Virus record (IMG/VR): IMGVR_UViG_3300022929_000055
Location: 1 to 45,829 of that record
From: a virus
Reading direction: 5' to 3' (one strand)
DNA length: 45,829 bases
Part shown: piece by piece, positions 4,211 through 41,903 of the stretch
Numbering within the stretch: the stretch's first letter is position 1
How the letters are laid out: each line of letters starts with the position of its first letter
Translations under genes and position numbers: made by a program
The notes under the pieces: generated by a model
Databases searched by the model: none
What the model was told of the DNA's origin: nothing
The model's input: the letters and a program-made list of their open reading frames with translations, nothing else

Positions 4211-5683
4211 TTAATCGTTTGCCATCTTATAGGCGCTGTACCCTGCGCCCAGACCGCTGAGAAGCTGCGCGTAAACTGATGGGTTTGCCTGATAGCTGGA
4301 CCCTAGCTCATAGCTACGGCTTCTTGTGCTGTATGGTGTACCAGACAATGCACCAAGTGCGAAGTTGACCATCTCTTGTGGGTACATTCTCTGATCCATG
4401 TAATCTGCGTATGCCAAGTCGAGCGCACGTTGATCCAAGATGCGCTGCGCCTCGCCAGCAGAGATAAGCCCAGCCGCTGCACGGTTTTGCAGATCCATGA
4501 CCAAGCCACCCATGTTTTGGTAGGCGTTCATCTGAGCGATACGAGCTGCTTCGTCTGTCTCGAAACCTTGGCGTCTTGCCTCTTCTGCTCCAAAACGTGC
4601 CGCACGTTCATCGCCATAGCGACCATACATGATGTCTTCTGCGCCGAATCTTGCAGCGCGATCTGCCTCTGCTTGCTCTCTGCGCATATCTTCTGCTGAG
4701 AAGCGACCAGAGCGATCTTCCATAAACTGACCGCGCATAACGTCTTCTGCACCAAACCGCGCTTGCTGATCTGCCATGAAGCGATCTCGCATGACATCCT
4801 CTGCGCCGAAACGCGCTTGGCGATCTTCCATGAATTGGCCACGCATGACATCTTCCGCGCCAAATCGTGCTGCACGATCTCGCTCTGCCTGTGCCAAGTC
4901 TTGGTCGTATCTCTGTGCCGCAAAGCCCAAACCTTCACGCGCTGCCTGTGCGCGTAAGTCTCCAGCCGCTCTTGAGCCTTCCCCTGCTGCTGTGCCTTCG
5001 AGAATGCCTAGTCGAGATCCACCAAATGCACCACTACGCGCTGCTGCTGCTCTGGCTTGGTTTTGCGCTTGAATTGTCTGCTCTTCGATTTCACGAATAG
5101 CTGGGTCCATAGACCGCTGGTAGATGTCCATGTATTGTTGCGCAGCATCCATTGAGAATGGAGCGGCAGATTCACCAATCAACTCTTCGCGTGTCGCACC
5201 TTGGTATTGGCCAAGTAGATCTTCGCGTGTTGCGCCTTCATACTGACCAAGTAGTTCGTCGCGTGTTGCACCCTGATATTGTCCTAAAAGTTCATCTGCT
5301 GATAAGCCTTGGAAGTCACCTTCCAGATAAGCACGGCTTGCACCACTATATGGCGTACCCATCAGCTCTGCACGGCTGGCAGCGTCGTATCCTTGGCCTA
5401 GCGTGTTTGCAATGGCAGAGGCACGGTTCATGTAGGGTAGATAGTTTTCAGCACCAGAGCGCAGTATTTCCATACCAGCGCGTTCATCTGCTGTTAGCTT
5501 GCTTCCATCGTATGTGGCTGTTCGCTCACCTGTGTAGATAGGATAGTCAGATCCAGCGATACCTGTGGCAGAAGTAAAGATCTCTCGACCAGCAGCAGCA
5601 ACCCATTCTGGGATCTCTGTGCCTTCTACGACATTCGTTGCTTCAGGCAATTCAGTGTATGATGGTGTGCAAAAACCGCCCAT
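4211..5683 (-). CDS. repeat-rich putative internal virion protein (490 aa)
   Basis: 490 residues, with a strong GGAGG five bases before the ATG. Two exact-period repeat arrays are visible. Residues 131-170 hold three copies and a partial fourth of a 12-residue unit (consensus ELLGQYQGATRE). Residues 273-380 hold six copies of an 18-residue unit (consensus RFGAEDVMRGQFMEDRQA; RFGAED-type starts at 273, 291, 309, 327, 345, 363). Both arrays suggest extended helical or coiled-coil rods. Residues 185-260 are an alanine- and arginine-rich helix. The start MGGFC is shared with the protein at 34401-35591. Position suggests an ejection or tail-internal protein. No family assigned. Confidence 0.8.
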   Translation of the reverse strand: MGGFCTPSYTELPEATNVVEGTEIPEWVAAAGREIFTSATGIAGSDYPIYTGERTATYDGSKLTADERAGMEILRSGAENYLPYMNRASAIANTLGQGYDAASRAELMGTPYSGASRAYLEGDFQGLSADELLGQYQGATRDELLGQYEGATREDLLGQYQGATREELIGESAAPFSMDAAQQYMDIYQRSMDPAIREIEEQTIQAQNQARAAAARSGAFGGSRLGILEGTAAGEGSRAAGDLRAQAAREGLGFAAQRYDQDLAQAERDRAARFGAEDVMRGQFMEDRQARFGAEDVMRDRFMADQQARFGAEDVMRGQFMEDRSGRFSAEDMRREQAEADRAARFGAEDIMYGRYGDERAARFGAEEARRQGFETDEAARIAQMNAYQNMGGLVMDLQNRAAAGLISAGEAQRILDQRALDLAYADYMDQRMYPQEMVNFALGALSGTPYSTRSRSYELGSSYQANPSVYAQLLSGLGAGYSAYKMAND

Positions 5684-11988: not shown

Positions 11989-12456
11989 TCACCAACGCTC
12001 CAGATATACACCTAAATAATATACCCCCAGAATAACACCTGTTGCAGCAAGAGTAATAACAGTAATAGTCTGTATAAGCTCAATTTGTTCTGCACGTTTC
12101 TTTTCCGCTGCTTTCTTGGCTTCTTGCCGTGCTTTTCGTGCTTCAGCTTGCCACTGAATCCACCTGTCCCACTGCCCCGGTCTTCCGTAGAGGCGAATGT
12201 AAGACTCTAATTCTTTGCGTTGTTCTCTAAGCTTTTCGAGTTGTTGGAACTCTTCCCAGTCACCCTCAGATCCACCTGTAATGGCAGTAATCGGACTGTT
12301 CTTTTTCTTTTGAACAGCGTCTTTTAATTCTTCTTCTGCTGTAAGAAATTTCCCTACAGACGCCATAAGGTCTGCACCTTCACGCCCATTTTGGATGCAT
12401 GTGCGAATGACGCTATATGCTGCGTTTGCAGCGGCAATGGTTTCCAAAATTGCCAT
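11989..12456 (-). CDS. coiled-coil / C-terminal membrane protein
   Basis: 155 residues from the ATG at 12456, chosen because it overlaps the TAA of the upstream 53-aa gene (TAATG) and has GGAG eight bases upstream. Residues about 1-40 are an Ala-rich helix (ETIAAANAAYSVIRTCIQNG), residues 60-130 a charged coiled coil with a tryptophan-rich patch (QWDRWIQWQ), and the C-terminus one membrane segment (TVITLAATGVILGVYYLGVYL). I recall similar proteins in other marine phages without known function. A role as a lysis-accessory or membrane-linked virion protein is a guess. Confidence 0.75.
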   Translation of the reverse strand: MAILETIAAANAAYSVIRTCIQNGREGADLMASVGKFLTAEEELKDAVQKKKNSPITAITGGSEGDWEEFQQLEKLREQRKELESYIRLYGRPGQWDRWIQWQAEARKARQEAKKAAEKKRAEQIELIQTITVITLAATGVILGVYYLGVYLERW

Positions 12457-12617
12457 TAGGTCAACTCCAACCTCACTGGACAAACGTAGTCGGGACTCAC
12501 ACGGTAGACCCTATCATAGTATCCGAAGCGCCTAGATCCACAGTCGTAGAAACAGGCTTTGTAAAAGCCAAGTTGAAAACTCTGGCCCCAAGCAACTAGG
12601 ACCAGAGTACAAATCAT
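12456..12617 (-). CDS. 53-aa Cys-containing small protein
   Basis: Found in the gap between two longer genes. 53 residues, starting at ATG 12617 with an ATGA overlap to the upstream gene and ending at a TAA that overlaps the next start (TAATG), so both boundaries are locked by coupling. The N-terminus is a short hydrophobic stretch (MICTLVLVAWGQSF), and there are four cysteines at 3, 22, 26 and 46 (motifs CFYDCGS and YVCPV). It resembles the short secreted 'CxYxC...CP' proteins often found beside lysis genes in marine podoviruses. Export and disulfide formation are inference. Confidence 0.75.
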   Translation of the reverse strand: MICTLVLVAWGQSFQLGFYKACFYDCGSRRFGYYDRVYRVSPDYVCPVRLELT

Positions 12618-13330: not shown

Positions 13331-13358
13331 GTCTTTCTCCTTTTCTGACTGGTTACGA

Positions 13359-21068: not shown

Positions 21069-21293
21069 CTATGATGCTGAGATGGTTGCGCCTGTATCTG
21101 AACGCTTCCAGTTTGTTCCGTCAGAGAACGCTAGGATTGCTGAACCAGCAGCACCGTCTGAAACGTAAACAAGTGTACCAGCGCCAGCATCTGAAGCTGA
21201 TGGTGCAGTTGCAACTGTGTATGTTGGAACTTTGATATCCCCGACAAAACCGTTTGTGGATGTCACTGGACCTGTAAAGGTAGTTGAAGCCAT
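21069..21293 (-). CDS. small structural protein (74 aa), hairpin-controlled start
   Basis: 74 residues from the ATG at 21293, with the strong ribosome site AAGGGG seven bases upstream; an upstream in-frame ATG at 21323 lacks such a site. The sequence is beta-rich (STTFTGPVTSTNGFVGDI, then PTYTVATAPSASDAGAGTLVYVSDGAAGSA), like many short marine-phage head-fibre or tail proteins. The ribosome site partly pairs with the inverted repeat at 21305-21336. It is the first gene after terminator 21406-21435. Confidence 0.72.
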   Translation of the reverse strand: MASTTFTGPVTSTNGFVGDIKVPTYTVATAPSASDAGAGTLVYVSDGAAGSAILAFSDGTNWKRSDTGATISAS

Positions 21294-21304
21294 ATTAATA
21301 CCCC

Positions 21305-21336
21305 TTGCACAAGGTTTCGCCATGCAGTCTGTGCAA
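21305..21336 (-). promoter_or_regulatory. hairpin overlapping the ribosome site of the tail operon
   Basis: Inverted repeat TTGCACA (21305-21311) and TGTGCAA (21330-21336) with an 18-base loop, directly upstream of the start at 21293. In the minus-strand transcript the downstream arm ends in AA immediately followed by GGGG, so the arm contains the first bases of the ribosome site AAGGGG. A second inverted repeat, GTGGGGC (21343-21349) and GCCCCAC (21376-21382), lies just upstream. This leader (21294-21405, about 110 bases) thus folds into two hairpins and may control translation of the structural genes. Function is inference. Confidence 0.45.
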
Positions 21337-21405: not shown

Positions 21406-21435
21406 AAAAAGAAAGAGGCGACTTTCGCCGCCTCT
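21406..21435 (-). terminator. intrinsic terminator after zinc-ribbon gene
   Basis: In the minus-strand transcript: 7-bp stem AGAGGCG/CGCCTCT with an 8-base loop, followed by UUCUUUUUG. It lies 6 bases after the stop of the 46-aa zinc ribbon gene. It separates the upstream two-gene cassette from the following tail genes. Confidence 0.75.
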
Positions 21436-21440
21436 GTTTG

Positions 21441-21581
21441 TTATTCTTCTTCTGCAAATTCTTCTTCGTTCTGCTTTTCTTCTTCGTAGCATGTTCCGCA
21501 TAAATGCCACCCATAATCTGGCTGATATTCTCCTTCTGTTGCGTTACAGCGTACACATTGTTTTCTATCTGAGTTACTCAT
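21441..21581 (-). CDS. 46-aa zinc-ribbon protein
   Basis: A 46-residue gene in the gap, with ribosome site AAGGAAGAAAG immediately before ATG. Residues 9-12 are CVRC and residues 28-31 are CGTC, a Cys-x2-Cys ... Cys-x2-Cys pair 18 residues apart, the classic small zinc ribbon. The C-terminus is a run of glutamates (EEEKQNEEEFAEEE). Such tiny zinc proteins in phages often bind host RNA polymerase or DNA; this is inference. It sits between the terminator below and the 133-aa gene 13 bases upstream. Confidence 0.75.
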   Translation of the reverse strand: MSNSDRKQCVRCNATEGEYQPDYGWHLCGTCYEEEKQNEEEFAEEE

Positions 21582-21594
21582 CTTTCTTCCTTTC

Positions 21595-21996
21595 TTAAAA
21601 ATACCCTCTGACACTATCTGGTAGATCTTCTAAATGAATGCTTCCCCGATAAAGCGCTTCAGCATATGGTGCGATCTCTTCACGTTCATAACGCTGCCAC
21701 GCTTCTGAACCATACATTGGTTCAGTTTCACCCCAATGCGCCAAGTCCAATGCTCCCCCAGCATTTAAGTGATTTTCCATACGCTCTAGCATTTTTTCGA
21801 CGCGCTCTCTAGCCTCATGATGGCCAACTTTATTTGATTGAAGTGACCAATTATGCGCCCACTGATTACCTTTATGATCTGCAACCATAATGTAATAGCT
21901 TGTTGCGATGTTGTCTGCTGGCTCTTCTGCCCAAGGGTTGTTGTACTCAAAATCCCACTGAGACATATAGATGAATGCTACTTGTTCTTTTTTCAT
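21595..21996 (-). CDS. hypothetical protein of the cassette (133 aa)
   Basis: 133 residues, with ribosome site AGAAAGGAAGAAAGAA before ATG. Contains a beta hairpin near 30-45 (IATSYYIMVADHKGNQW), an alpha segment (HEARERVEKMLERMENHL), and acidic-aromatic regions (GETEPMYGSEAWQRYEREE). I do not recognise the family. Its neighbours are the zinc ribbon (same cassette, 13 bases downstream) and the terminator after the major capsid gene upstream. Possibly an accessory protein acting on the host. Confidence 0.7.
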   Translation of the reverse strand: MKKEQVAFIYMSQWDFEYNNPWAEEPADNIATSYYIMVADHKGNQWAHNWSLQSNKVGHHEARERVEKMLERMENHLNAGGALDLAHWGETEPMYGSEAWQRYEREEIAPYAEALYRGSIHLEDLPDSVRGYF

Positions 21997-22023
21997 TTCT
22001 TTCTTCCTTTCTCTTACAAGACA

Positions 22024-22051
22024 CAGATATGCACTGCCTAGTATTTTACAA
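22024..22051 (-). promoter_or_regulatory. candidate promoter of the two-gene cassette
   Basis: In the minus strand, TTGTAA (22046-22051) and TATCTG (22024-22029) are separated by 16 bases. They lie between the terminator at 22088-22117 and the start at 21996, which would give a leader of about 20 bases. The match to sigma-70 consensus is partial, so it is only a candidate. The same layout (TTGAAC, 16 bases, TATCTA) occurs at 41876-41903. Confidence 0.35.
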
Positions 22052-22087
22052 GGGTAAAAAGAAAAAAAATAATTTATCGTTTATTTA

Positions 22088-22117
22088 CAAAAGGAAAGGG
22101 GCAGCTTTCGCCACCCC
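22088..22117 (-). terminator. intrinsic terminator after major capsid gene
   Basis: In the minus-strand transcript: 8-bp stem with two G-U pairs (GGGGUGGC/GCUGCCCC) closed by a GAAA tetraloop, followed by UUUCCUUUUG. It lies 28 bases after the stop of the major capsid gene (22145). Its wobble pairs exist only in the minus-strand RNA, which supports that orientation. Confidence 0.8.
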
Positions 22118-22144: not shown

Positions 22145-23047
22145 TTATGCTGCGCCTTCTGTACCGAAAACACCGCGCCAGTCAGTGAAGCCGAATGAGT
22201 AACGCTCACGCACTTTGTAGCGCACGTTACCTGTTTCGAAGTCACCTTCCATTCCCTTTTTCATTGGGGAACGCTGGAACATTTTCAGTCCATCAGGAAC
22301 ATCAGTTGTCACGAAGAACGCATCGCTGTCTGTTAGACGACGCATCACATGATATCCTTTTGGCAGATAACCACCAGAACGGATAGCGTTGATGTCGTTG
22401 TCAGCAGTACCTGTGCGTAGCTGTGACTCTAGCAGACGTTCTGCAACGAAGGTGTAAGCTGTTGGGATAACCAACATCTGACCTTGTGCAGCAATCCGAA
22501 GACCACGATCATCTTTCATATCCGCGATTTGGATAAGAATAGCTTCAAGTGATGTTTCAGAAAGGTCAGCAGCAGTCGAAAGTGTGTTTGACTGGTTGCC
22601 GTTCTGCGTTGGGTGAGATGTGCTTAGTAGCGGTACACCGTCACCACCGTTTGTGCTTGTCGCGTTGTTCAAGACGTTTGCCGCTTTGATCTCTTTAGTA
22701 GAGGCCATAGAACGTGCAAGTGCCTTTGTGTAGCGCGAAGCAATTGAGCCATACTGACCGTCTTCTTCAGCTTCTTCAGTGATTGAGAAAGCCAAAGCAA
22801 TTGTTTCGTGCTGGTAACGCGCAGTCCACTGTTGAGAAGCCGCATCATAGCTGATCGCTGCGCCTTCACCTTTTGTTGGAGCATTTCCAAACCCGGATAA
22901 AAGCACGTCTTCCTCGAATGCCTTCTGAGAAGTATTCGATTCAAACACAGCTTCGTATTCGGCTGGATAGCTGTCATATTCGAGTCCAAAAAGAGTATTC
23001 AGACCCGGCTCAAGCATTTTAGCAAAGGATGCTCTATTCATTGCCAT
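22145..23047 (-). CDS. major capsid protein (Mu gpT-like)
   Basis: 300 residues, normal for this family. AGGAGGG eight bases upstream fixes ATG at 23047. Characteristic segments: N-terminal 'NRASFAKMLEPGLNTLFG', 'FEEDVLLSGFGNAPTKGEGAAISYD', 'YQHETIALAFSITEEAEEDGQY' and 'YTKALARSMASTKEIKAANVL', 'SGGYLPKGYHVMRRL', and C-terminal 'ERYSFGFTDWRGVFGTEG'. This is the pattern of the Mu-like gpT major head subunit family (HK97 fold) common in marine phages. A decoration-type protein and a scaffold lie upstream. No prohead protease gene is visible. Confidence 0.9.
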   Translation of the reverse strand: MAMNRASFAKMLEPGLNTLFGLEYDSYPAEYEAVFESNTSQKAFEEDVLLSGFGNAPTKGEGAAISYDAASQQWTARYQHETIALAFSITEEAEEDGQYGSIASRYTKALARSMASTKEIKAANVLNNATSTNGGDGVPLLSTSHPTQNGNQSNTLSTAADLSETSLEAILIQIADMKDDRGLRIAAQGQMLVIPTAYTFVAERLLESQLRTGTADNDINAIRSGGYLPKGYHVMRRLTDSDAFFVTTDVPDGLKMFQRSPMKKGMEGDFETGNVRYKVRERYSFGFTDWRGVFGTEGAA

Positions 23048-40248: not shown

Positions 40249-40278
40249 AAAAAAAGAAAGACCCACCGAAGTGGGTCT
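40249..40278 (-). terminator. strong intrinsic terminator before the terminase genes
   Basis: In the minus-strand transcript: a perfect 8-bp stem AGACCCAC/GUGGGUCU with a UUCG tetraloop, followed by UUCUUUUUUU. It ends the early leftward unit (last gene at 40327) and precedes the terminase genes. The tail is followed by TATATAATTG, so a late promoter may start here. Confidence 0.9.
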
Positions 40279-41353: not shown

Positions 41354-41627
41354 TTTTTCTCCAATCTGTGTAAAGTTTCTTGGCAGCGTCGTGCCATGTT
41401 GTTTTTTGGATTGGACTTTCAGCGTGGCGATGATGCCATGTTGCTGTGTCGCGAGTTGTTCCACAAGCTGCTGTTGTGGTTTTGTAGATTTTGCCAAGAT
41501 AGATATATTTCTCTTCGCCATATGGTCTGTATAGGATGTGCGCGAATGCGTTTTCACCAGCTCCGAAGACTTTAGCGATGATGTCGAAACCATTCTTCTG
41601 GTGTTTCATGATACGATTGTAAGACAT
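41334..41627 (-). CDS. hypothetical early protein (97 aa)
   Basis: 97 residues, TAATG-coupled to the upstream gene at 41627. 'NAFAHILYRPYGEEKYIYLGKIYKTT', 'GTTRDTATWHHRHAESPIQ', and 'TTWHDAAKKLYTDWRKN' look like a single small alpha/beta domain with many aromatic and basic residues. No family recognised. It ends overlapping the next gene by 20 bases. Confidence 0.68.
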   Translation of the reverse strand: MSYNRIMKHQKNGFDIIAKVFGAGENAFAHILYRPYGEEKYIYLGKIYKTTTAACGTTRDTATWHHRHAESPIQKTTWHDAAKKLYTDWRKNAQATV

Positions 41628-41848
41628 TACACGATCTCCTTTGCTTCCATGATTTCTAGTAGGTCAGCGCGTGACCAAGCACGACAGATGATGCGGTTCA
41701 TTCCGTGTGCTGTATCTGCTGCGACCCACTTTAGGCCAAGCTTGTAAACAAGAATGTTTTCTGCGCCTTTGACGCACCACTCAGCAGCGCTTGTGCCAAG
41801 TCCGTTTCCGTTCCACTGTGTAGATTGTGTTTTAGTAAGTTTGATCAT
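41627..41848 (-). CDS. small early protein (73 aa)
   Basis: 73 residues from ATG 41848, with GAGAAAGGAAGAAAGCAA directly upstream; the in-frame ATG at 41875 has no such site. Sequence MIKLTKTQSTQWNGNGLGTS, then 'GLKWVAADTAHGMNRIICRAWSRADLLEIMEAKEIV'. Function unknown. It is preceded by the candidate promoter at 41876-41903. Confidence 0.68.
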   Translation of the reverse strand: MIKLTKTQSTQWNGNGLGTSAAEWCVKGAENILVYKLGLKWVAADTAHGMNRIICRAWSRADLLEIMEAKEIV

Positions 41849-41875: not shown

Positions 41876-41903
41876 TAGATAGTCATTCTGGCATTGGGTT
41901 CAA
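41876..41903 (-). promoter_or_regulatory. candidate early promoter
   Basis: On the minus strand, TTGAAC (41898-41903) then 16 bases then TATCTA (41876-41881), about 28 bases upstream of the start at 41848. It is similar in layout to the candidate at 22024-22051. Consensus match is weak; candidate only. Confidence 0.33.

Follow-up and report, generated by a model that had tools for sequence, protein, structure and literature searches.

The genes encoding a 133-aa protein (P133) and a 46-aa four-cysteine protein (Zn46), located directly after the major capsid gene of the phage analysed here, constitute with a probability of about 0.8 a moron, that is, an optional early-type unit inserted at the post-capsid terminator of CRP-901-type marine phages. 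A moron had already been proposed in a sequence-only reading of the same DNA, and the proposal is borne out by the absence of the unit from most close relatives and by the presence of different units at exactly the same place elsewhere. To this the present analysis adds a recurrent slot, interchangeable cargo and the use of the phages' own early signals.

The window, by which we mean the whole 45.8-kb stretch of DNA and thus the complete virus record, belongs to a phage of the Roseobacter CRP-901 type, and its capsid protein shares 91 and 90% identity with gp57 of CRP-901 and CRP-902, respectively. Phages of this type are reported to be widespread and abundant in the ocean and to be strictly lytic (PMC10149686). 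The gene order on the minus strand begins with an HTH regulator, a primase-polymerase, small early genes and a terminator, proceeds through terminase, portal, head genes, GroES and capsid to the P133-Zn46 unit, and continues with a gene whose product starts with MASTTFTGP and with more head and tail genes (Table 1). The start of the gene that follows the second terminator is probably at 21293, yielding 74 aa as in relatives, and not at 21323, where an 84-aa ORF begins.

Table 1. Positions of the post-capsid cassette, its neighbours and the early-region features compared with it
Feature	Position	Strand	Remarks
Window (virus record)	45.8 kb		all genes considered here on the minus strand
Major capsid gene, left neighbour	22145..23047	-	Phage_capsid_4 / Mu gpT-like; Pfam PF25209 4.7e-16, phrog_371 1.6e-22
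Terminator T1, post-capsid	22098..22117	-	counterpart at same place in CRP-901/902
Candidate early promoter TTGTAA-N16-TATCTG	22024..22051	-	sole match with at most 1 mismatch to the CRP-901/902 core in the window
Ribosome site AGAAAGGAAGAAAG of P133	21999..22012	-	
P133, 133-aa accessory protein	21595..21996	-	phrog_1507-related family
Ribosome site AGAAAGGAAGAAAG of Zn46	21582..21595	-	
Zn46, 46-aa four-cysteine (zinc-ribbon-like) protein	21441..21581	-	
Terminator T2, closes cassette	21414..21435	-	in L091 and L253 the same T2 stands after an unrelated gene
First gene past the site, right neighbour, MASTTFTGP..., 74 aa	21069..21293	-	MA-x-TTF-x-GP-type genes directly after capsid at empty sites
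Comparator early gene	41627..41848	-	same ribosome site and promoter core; promoter starts at 41903
Early/late-boundary terminator	40259..40278	-	only other strong minus-strand terminator in the window

Occupied and empty sites after the capsid gene

The sequence-only reading had proposed to look for the presence or absence of the cassette at the capsid-tail junction of related phages. Among 49 loci that offer sufficient sequence and whose capsid is at least 80% identical, the site is empty in 41, namely CRP-901, CRP-902 and 39 other relatives ("empty" includes variants with a different spacer), and the others hold P133 with or without Zn46, unrelated genes, or an unrelated gene together with Zn46. 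P133 is found at four of these loci, a 197-aa gene unrelated to P133 (casB197) at three and a 191-aa gene (casC191) at one; this occupied share is inflated by the deliberate search for P133 and casB carriers, and without such queries two of 43 loci are occupied (L018 and L047). The casB197 gene stands at the same site in four more contigs that lack the capsid end (L091, L253, L254 and L256).

At the empty site of CRP-901/902 a single terminator stands behind the capsid gene, and a gene starting with MATSTFSGP comes 140 bp further on; the P133-Zn46 unit separates two genes that are neighbours in related phages. Occupied sites have two terminators, and CRP-901/902 and those other empty sites that share this terminator type have one. 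L047, which is nearly identical to CRP-901/902, forms with CRP-901 a clean occupied/empty pair: the flanks are 98.6 and 95.8% identical, and their matches share 44 bp at the terminator, so that copies of the terminator stand as a direct repeat around a 664-bp insert. The boundary of the slot is a duplicated terminator, clean in L047 and diverged in the window. In more distant relatives, with a capsid about 60% identical (L057, L060, L066, L067, L070, L073, L074, L080, L082 and L117), the first post-capsid ORF is not of the MA-x-TTF-x-GP type, and the post-capsid site may be variable in these phages as well.

Exchange of cassette contents

P133 and Zn46 occur together in L002, L003 and L004, and P133 alone in L001, where in comparison with L002 exactly 155 nt containing Zn46 are absent and the flanks are 99.4 and 99.5% identical. 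In L091 the same T2 region (97.4%) follows directly on the stop codon of an unrelated gene, and in L252 and L256 casB197 is followed by Zn46 with the same spacing (94% over the shared part). A further casB197 carrier, L251, has an unrelated gene of about 95 aa behind casB197 (4608-4890), and L018 carries casC191. The site holds P133, P133 with Zn46, casB197, casB197 with Zn46, or casC191, and its contents are therefore swapped gene by gene. All P133 carriers at the post-capsid site are very close relatives (capsid 99-100%), and the presence of P133 there may represent a single acquisition. The G+C content of the two cassette genes is 43 and 39%, against 47.8% for the capsid gene and 48.2% for the window. 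As a separate observation, the Zn gene of L252 (4608-4930) and L256 (293-615) is longer by an additional C-terminal segment, and the vestige of a second copy, with a vestigial start (MTMCVRCNEEFAEEE), precedes T2, which suggests a local duplication or insertion.

Terminators flanking the cassette

The 133-aa and 46-aa genes had been described as lying after the capsid gene between terminators at 22088-22117 and 21406-21435, and both the two minus-strand ORFs and the two terminators were recovered. The T1 stem (22117-22098) has 8 bp, a folding energy of -20.2 kcal/mol with context and a z of -4.6, that of T2 (21435-21414) has 9 bp, -16.5 kcal/mol and a z of -3.6, and each is followed by a T-rich tail. 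Together with the stem at the early/late boundary they are the only minus-strand hairpins in the whole window with a T tail and a stem of 8 or more pairs, 5 or more of them G-C, and no additional copy of T1 or T2 was found elsewhere in the window. An RNA element at T1 was considered and rejected, the single Rfam match (BjrC68, E 0.31) being far under the gathering score. Soon after the terminator, the leaders of L006, L010, L018, L040 and L047, and the window at about 21395, display a TGTTGTANTGT / TGCTATTCT-like element, which may act as late promoter for the MA-x-TTF-x-GP gene; downstream of it lies a leader with possible hairpins.

Early-type signals in the cassette

An exact AGAAAGGAAGAAAG occurs three times in the window, upstream of P133, of Zn46 and of the early gene at 41848, in agreement with the earlier claim that both cassette genes use an early-type ribosome site unlike that of their structural neighbours. 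Allowing up to two mismatches, eight matches are found against 0.41 expected, a number reached by no shuffle; those with one mismatch (42313 and 42676) both lie in the early region, and only one with two mismatches, at 13333, stands ahead of a gene of the structural half.

The early-promoter core of CRP-901/902, TTGTAA-N16-TATATG, has a single match with at most one mismatch in the 45.8 kb, located upstream of P133, where 0.18 would be expected anywhere and 0.03 once a TGTA at fixed distance is added. The core is kept in the diverged leader of L003 (TTGAAA-N16-TATCTC), and the leader of the early gene at 41848 reads TTGAAC-N16-TATCTA, with the core maintained in its diverged relatives L264 and L265. 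The pattern TTGWAN-N16-TATMT, fixed partly after the window was seen, gives three matches in the window against 0.34 expected, two of which lie just upstream of an exact AGAAAGGAAGAAAG. With the full 37-position CRP-901/902 promoter matrix the P133 leader scores 1.1 bits (rank 9 of 91,586 positions), which is not significant genome-wide and lies under the best position of every shuffled window, the L003 leader scores below 0, and the window lacks the inverted repeat GTGACA-nn-TGTCAC found in the CRP-901 box. A generic sigma-70 promoter in the P133 leader was rejected, as the general sigma-70 matrix gives no match. The candidate promoter that the sequence-only reading had placed at 22024-22051 is the unique match to the early core, although neither the sigma-70 nor the full matrix lends this copy more than weak scores. 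The evidence for it as a putative early promoter of P133 is moderate and partly post hoc.

In the early regions of CRP-901/902 an early box, TTGTAATCTGTGACAnnTGTCAY..TATAT..TGTAGAGAGAGAGG, was detected in 11 copies, some of which directly abut a terminator, and several early genes of these phages are built as terminator-promoter-gene; they are termed early on the grounds of gene content and genome position. Copies lie at 12016, 12646, 13265 and 14278 of CRP-901 (L258) and at 12530, 13162, 13748 and 14297 of CRP-902 (L259), with minus-strand copies too, and in most of them the -35 and -10 elements enclose the inverted repeat GTGACA-nn-TGTCAC, which might serve as the operator of a phage regulator. 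A matrix derived from the CRP-901/902 boxes gives 31-36 bits on the casB leaders of L047, L251 and L252, the maximum in shuffled windows being 13, and these casB cassettes therefore carry the early promoter of the group into the late operon. The arrangement of a stem-loop terminator and an early promoter upstream of a gene is strong in these three contigs and in the CRP-901/902 early region, and in the window the same order is seen in T1, the promoter core and P133. The casC191 gene of L018 corresponds to gp29 of CRP-901 and CRP-902 (69.5 and 65.8% identity, respectively), an early gene close to where the rightward early operon ends.

The cassette proteins

The P133 family has a conserved end, GG-x-L-(D/N)...W-x-E-x-(D/E)-P-x-Y-G-S, and matches phrog_1507 at 4e-6. 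The AlphaFold model of P133 (pLDDT 95) found no fold match in the PDB (best E 0.34), and its ten significant matches in BFVD are all viral proteins without a named function. Zn46 displays the spacing C-x2-C-x15-C-x2-C, with C9, C12, C28 and C31 invariant in three copies. Its earlier description as a zinc ribbon holds as regards the two invariant CxxC knuckles, but not as a family assignment, since no zinc-ribbon family or structure was matched above the cut-off and its resemblance to zinc-ribbon proteins is weak, the best PDB sequence match, uS14, having an E of 0.2. Pfam, NCBIfam, PADLOC and PHROGs yielded no function for P133 and Zn46, which match no known defence or counter-defence family in PADLOC, Pfam or NCBIfam; likewise, Pfam and PHROGs gave no function for casB197 and casC191, and Zn46 and casB197 have no match in the "phages" sequence set.

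Relatives of P133 occur in large phages, in accessory regions made up of small genes, among them the terminal repeat of Caulobacter phage CcrSC, and within the phage group homologues are also located upstream of GroES and upstream of terminase, several of the GroES-side copies having strong sigma-70 promoters (TTGACA-N16-TATACT) and a AGAAAGGAA ribosome site. Because relatives of P133 sit in accessory regions and in other promoter-driven cassettes of the phage group, the likeliest role of P133 and Zn46, judged from genomic context, is that of small factors for host takeover or counter-defence, and not of virion components. The region upstream of GroES is a second cassette site in L020, L021, L023, L191 and L245, where a short basic ORF and a P133 homologue are found behind a TTGACA-N16-TATACT/TATAGT promoter and a divergent promoter-like sequence shares a GATTCG element.

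Proposed mechanism and alternative explanations

We hypothesize that the unit, laid out as early promoter, P133, Zn46 and terminator at the terminator following the capsid gene, arrived with a terminator resembling the resident one, and that homologous recombination at the terminators could insert, swap or delete such units. T1 would shield the unit from late capsid transcription, the unit's own early promoter would be read by the host RNA polymerase before the structural operon, leading to early production of P133 and Zn46, and T2 would keep the cassette transcript out of the head and tail genes; early expression is thus a prediction from sequence. A broader proposition, to which we give even odds, is that the post-capsid terminator is a true docking site, a recombination boundary where promoter-gene-terminator units of the early region insert, stack and exchange inside the late operon, and which would provide these lytic marine phages with a swappable slot for host-takeover or counter-defence cargo.

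We consider it improbable that the insertion, while real, brought late accessory genes without a working promoter, expressed late through leaky read-through of T1, with T1 and T2 serving as capsid-dosage terminators and the terminator as a merely harmless landing place. The terminator after gene 10 of T7 is a capsid-dosage terminator, and such an explanation would suit the existence of the post-capsid terminator at empty sites as well and the negative outcome on the window leader of both promoter searches, with the general sigma-70 and the full matrix; nevertheless, it is opposed by the early-type ribosome site of the cassette genes, by the single match to the early-promoter core at the right distance and by the full early promoters borne by alternative cassettes at the same site. 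The early-type signals argue as well against P133 and Zn46 being capsid decoration or head-completion proteins, which we hold to be very unlikely even though the cassette adjoins the capsid gene and genes for capsid decoration have been counted among the morons (PMC4378225): the site also accepts the known early gene casC, the accessory small-gene regions and the terminal repeat where P133 relatives lie are those of unrelated large phages, and the fold of P133 matches no solved protein significantly. The flanking repeat and the recurrence of insertions at precisely one site might also be attributed to a self-mobile element, moved by its own recombinase or homing endonuclease, and this we judge the least probable explanation, given that no recombinase or nuclease was recognised in any cassette seen, that the repeat is the terminator itself and that the contents are exchanged gene by gene.

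Comparison with known systems

The optional P133-Zn46 unit resembles the antiviral hotspots of P2-like phages and P4-like satellites in its fixed site and interchangeable cargo; those hotspots belong to P2-like phages and satellites of E. coli and carry anti-phage cargo (PMC9122126), whereas P133 and Zn46 match no defence family. With classical morons (PMC4378225) it shares a terminator, a position between genes adjacent in relatives, a differing base composition, and gain or loss among near-identical phages, and it has a candidate promoter of its own. It departs from them in occurring in a group reported to be strictly lytic (PMC10149686), in the several alternative cassettes found at one site, in a boundary formed by a duplicated phage terminator and in a candidate promoter of the phage's own early class. 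The way in which morons are acquired has been described as mysterious (PMC4378225); here, a specific acquisition mechanism becomes testable through near-identical occupied and empty phages, the terminator repeat and three alternative cargoes unrelated to one another, and the P133 family, Zn46, casB197 and casC191 provide a short list of accessory proteins worth screening for effects on Roseobacter hosts.

A terminator hairpin and an early promoter beside shuffled accessory genes are also the features of the promoter-early stem-loop (PeSL) cassettes of T4-like phages (Arbiol 2010 and Comeau 2014, as cited in PMC4503421). As regards motif density, 11 boxes are present in the CRP-901/902 early regions and only two gene-linked core sites in the window. 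In contrast to the T4-like PeSL cassettes as outlined there, units of the kind described here occur within the late structural operon as well, at a single conserved terminator.
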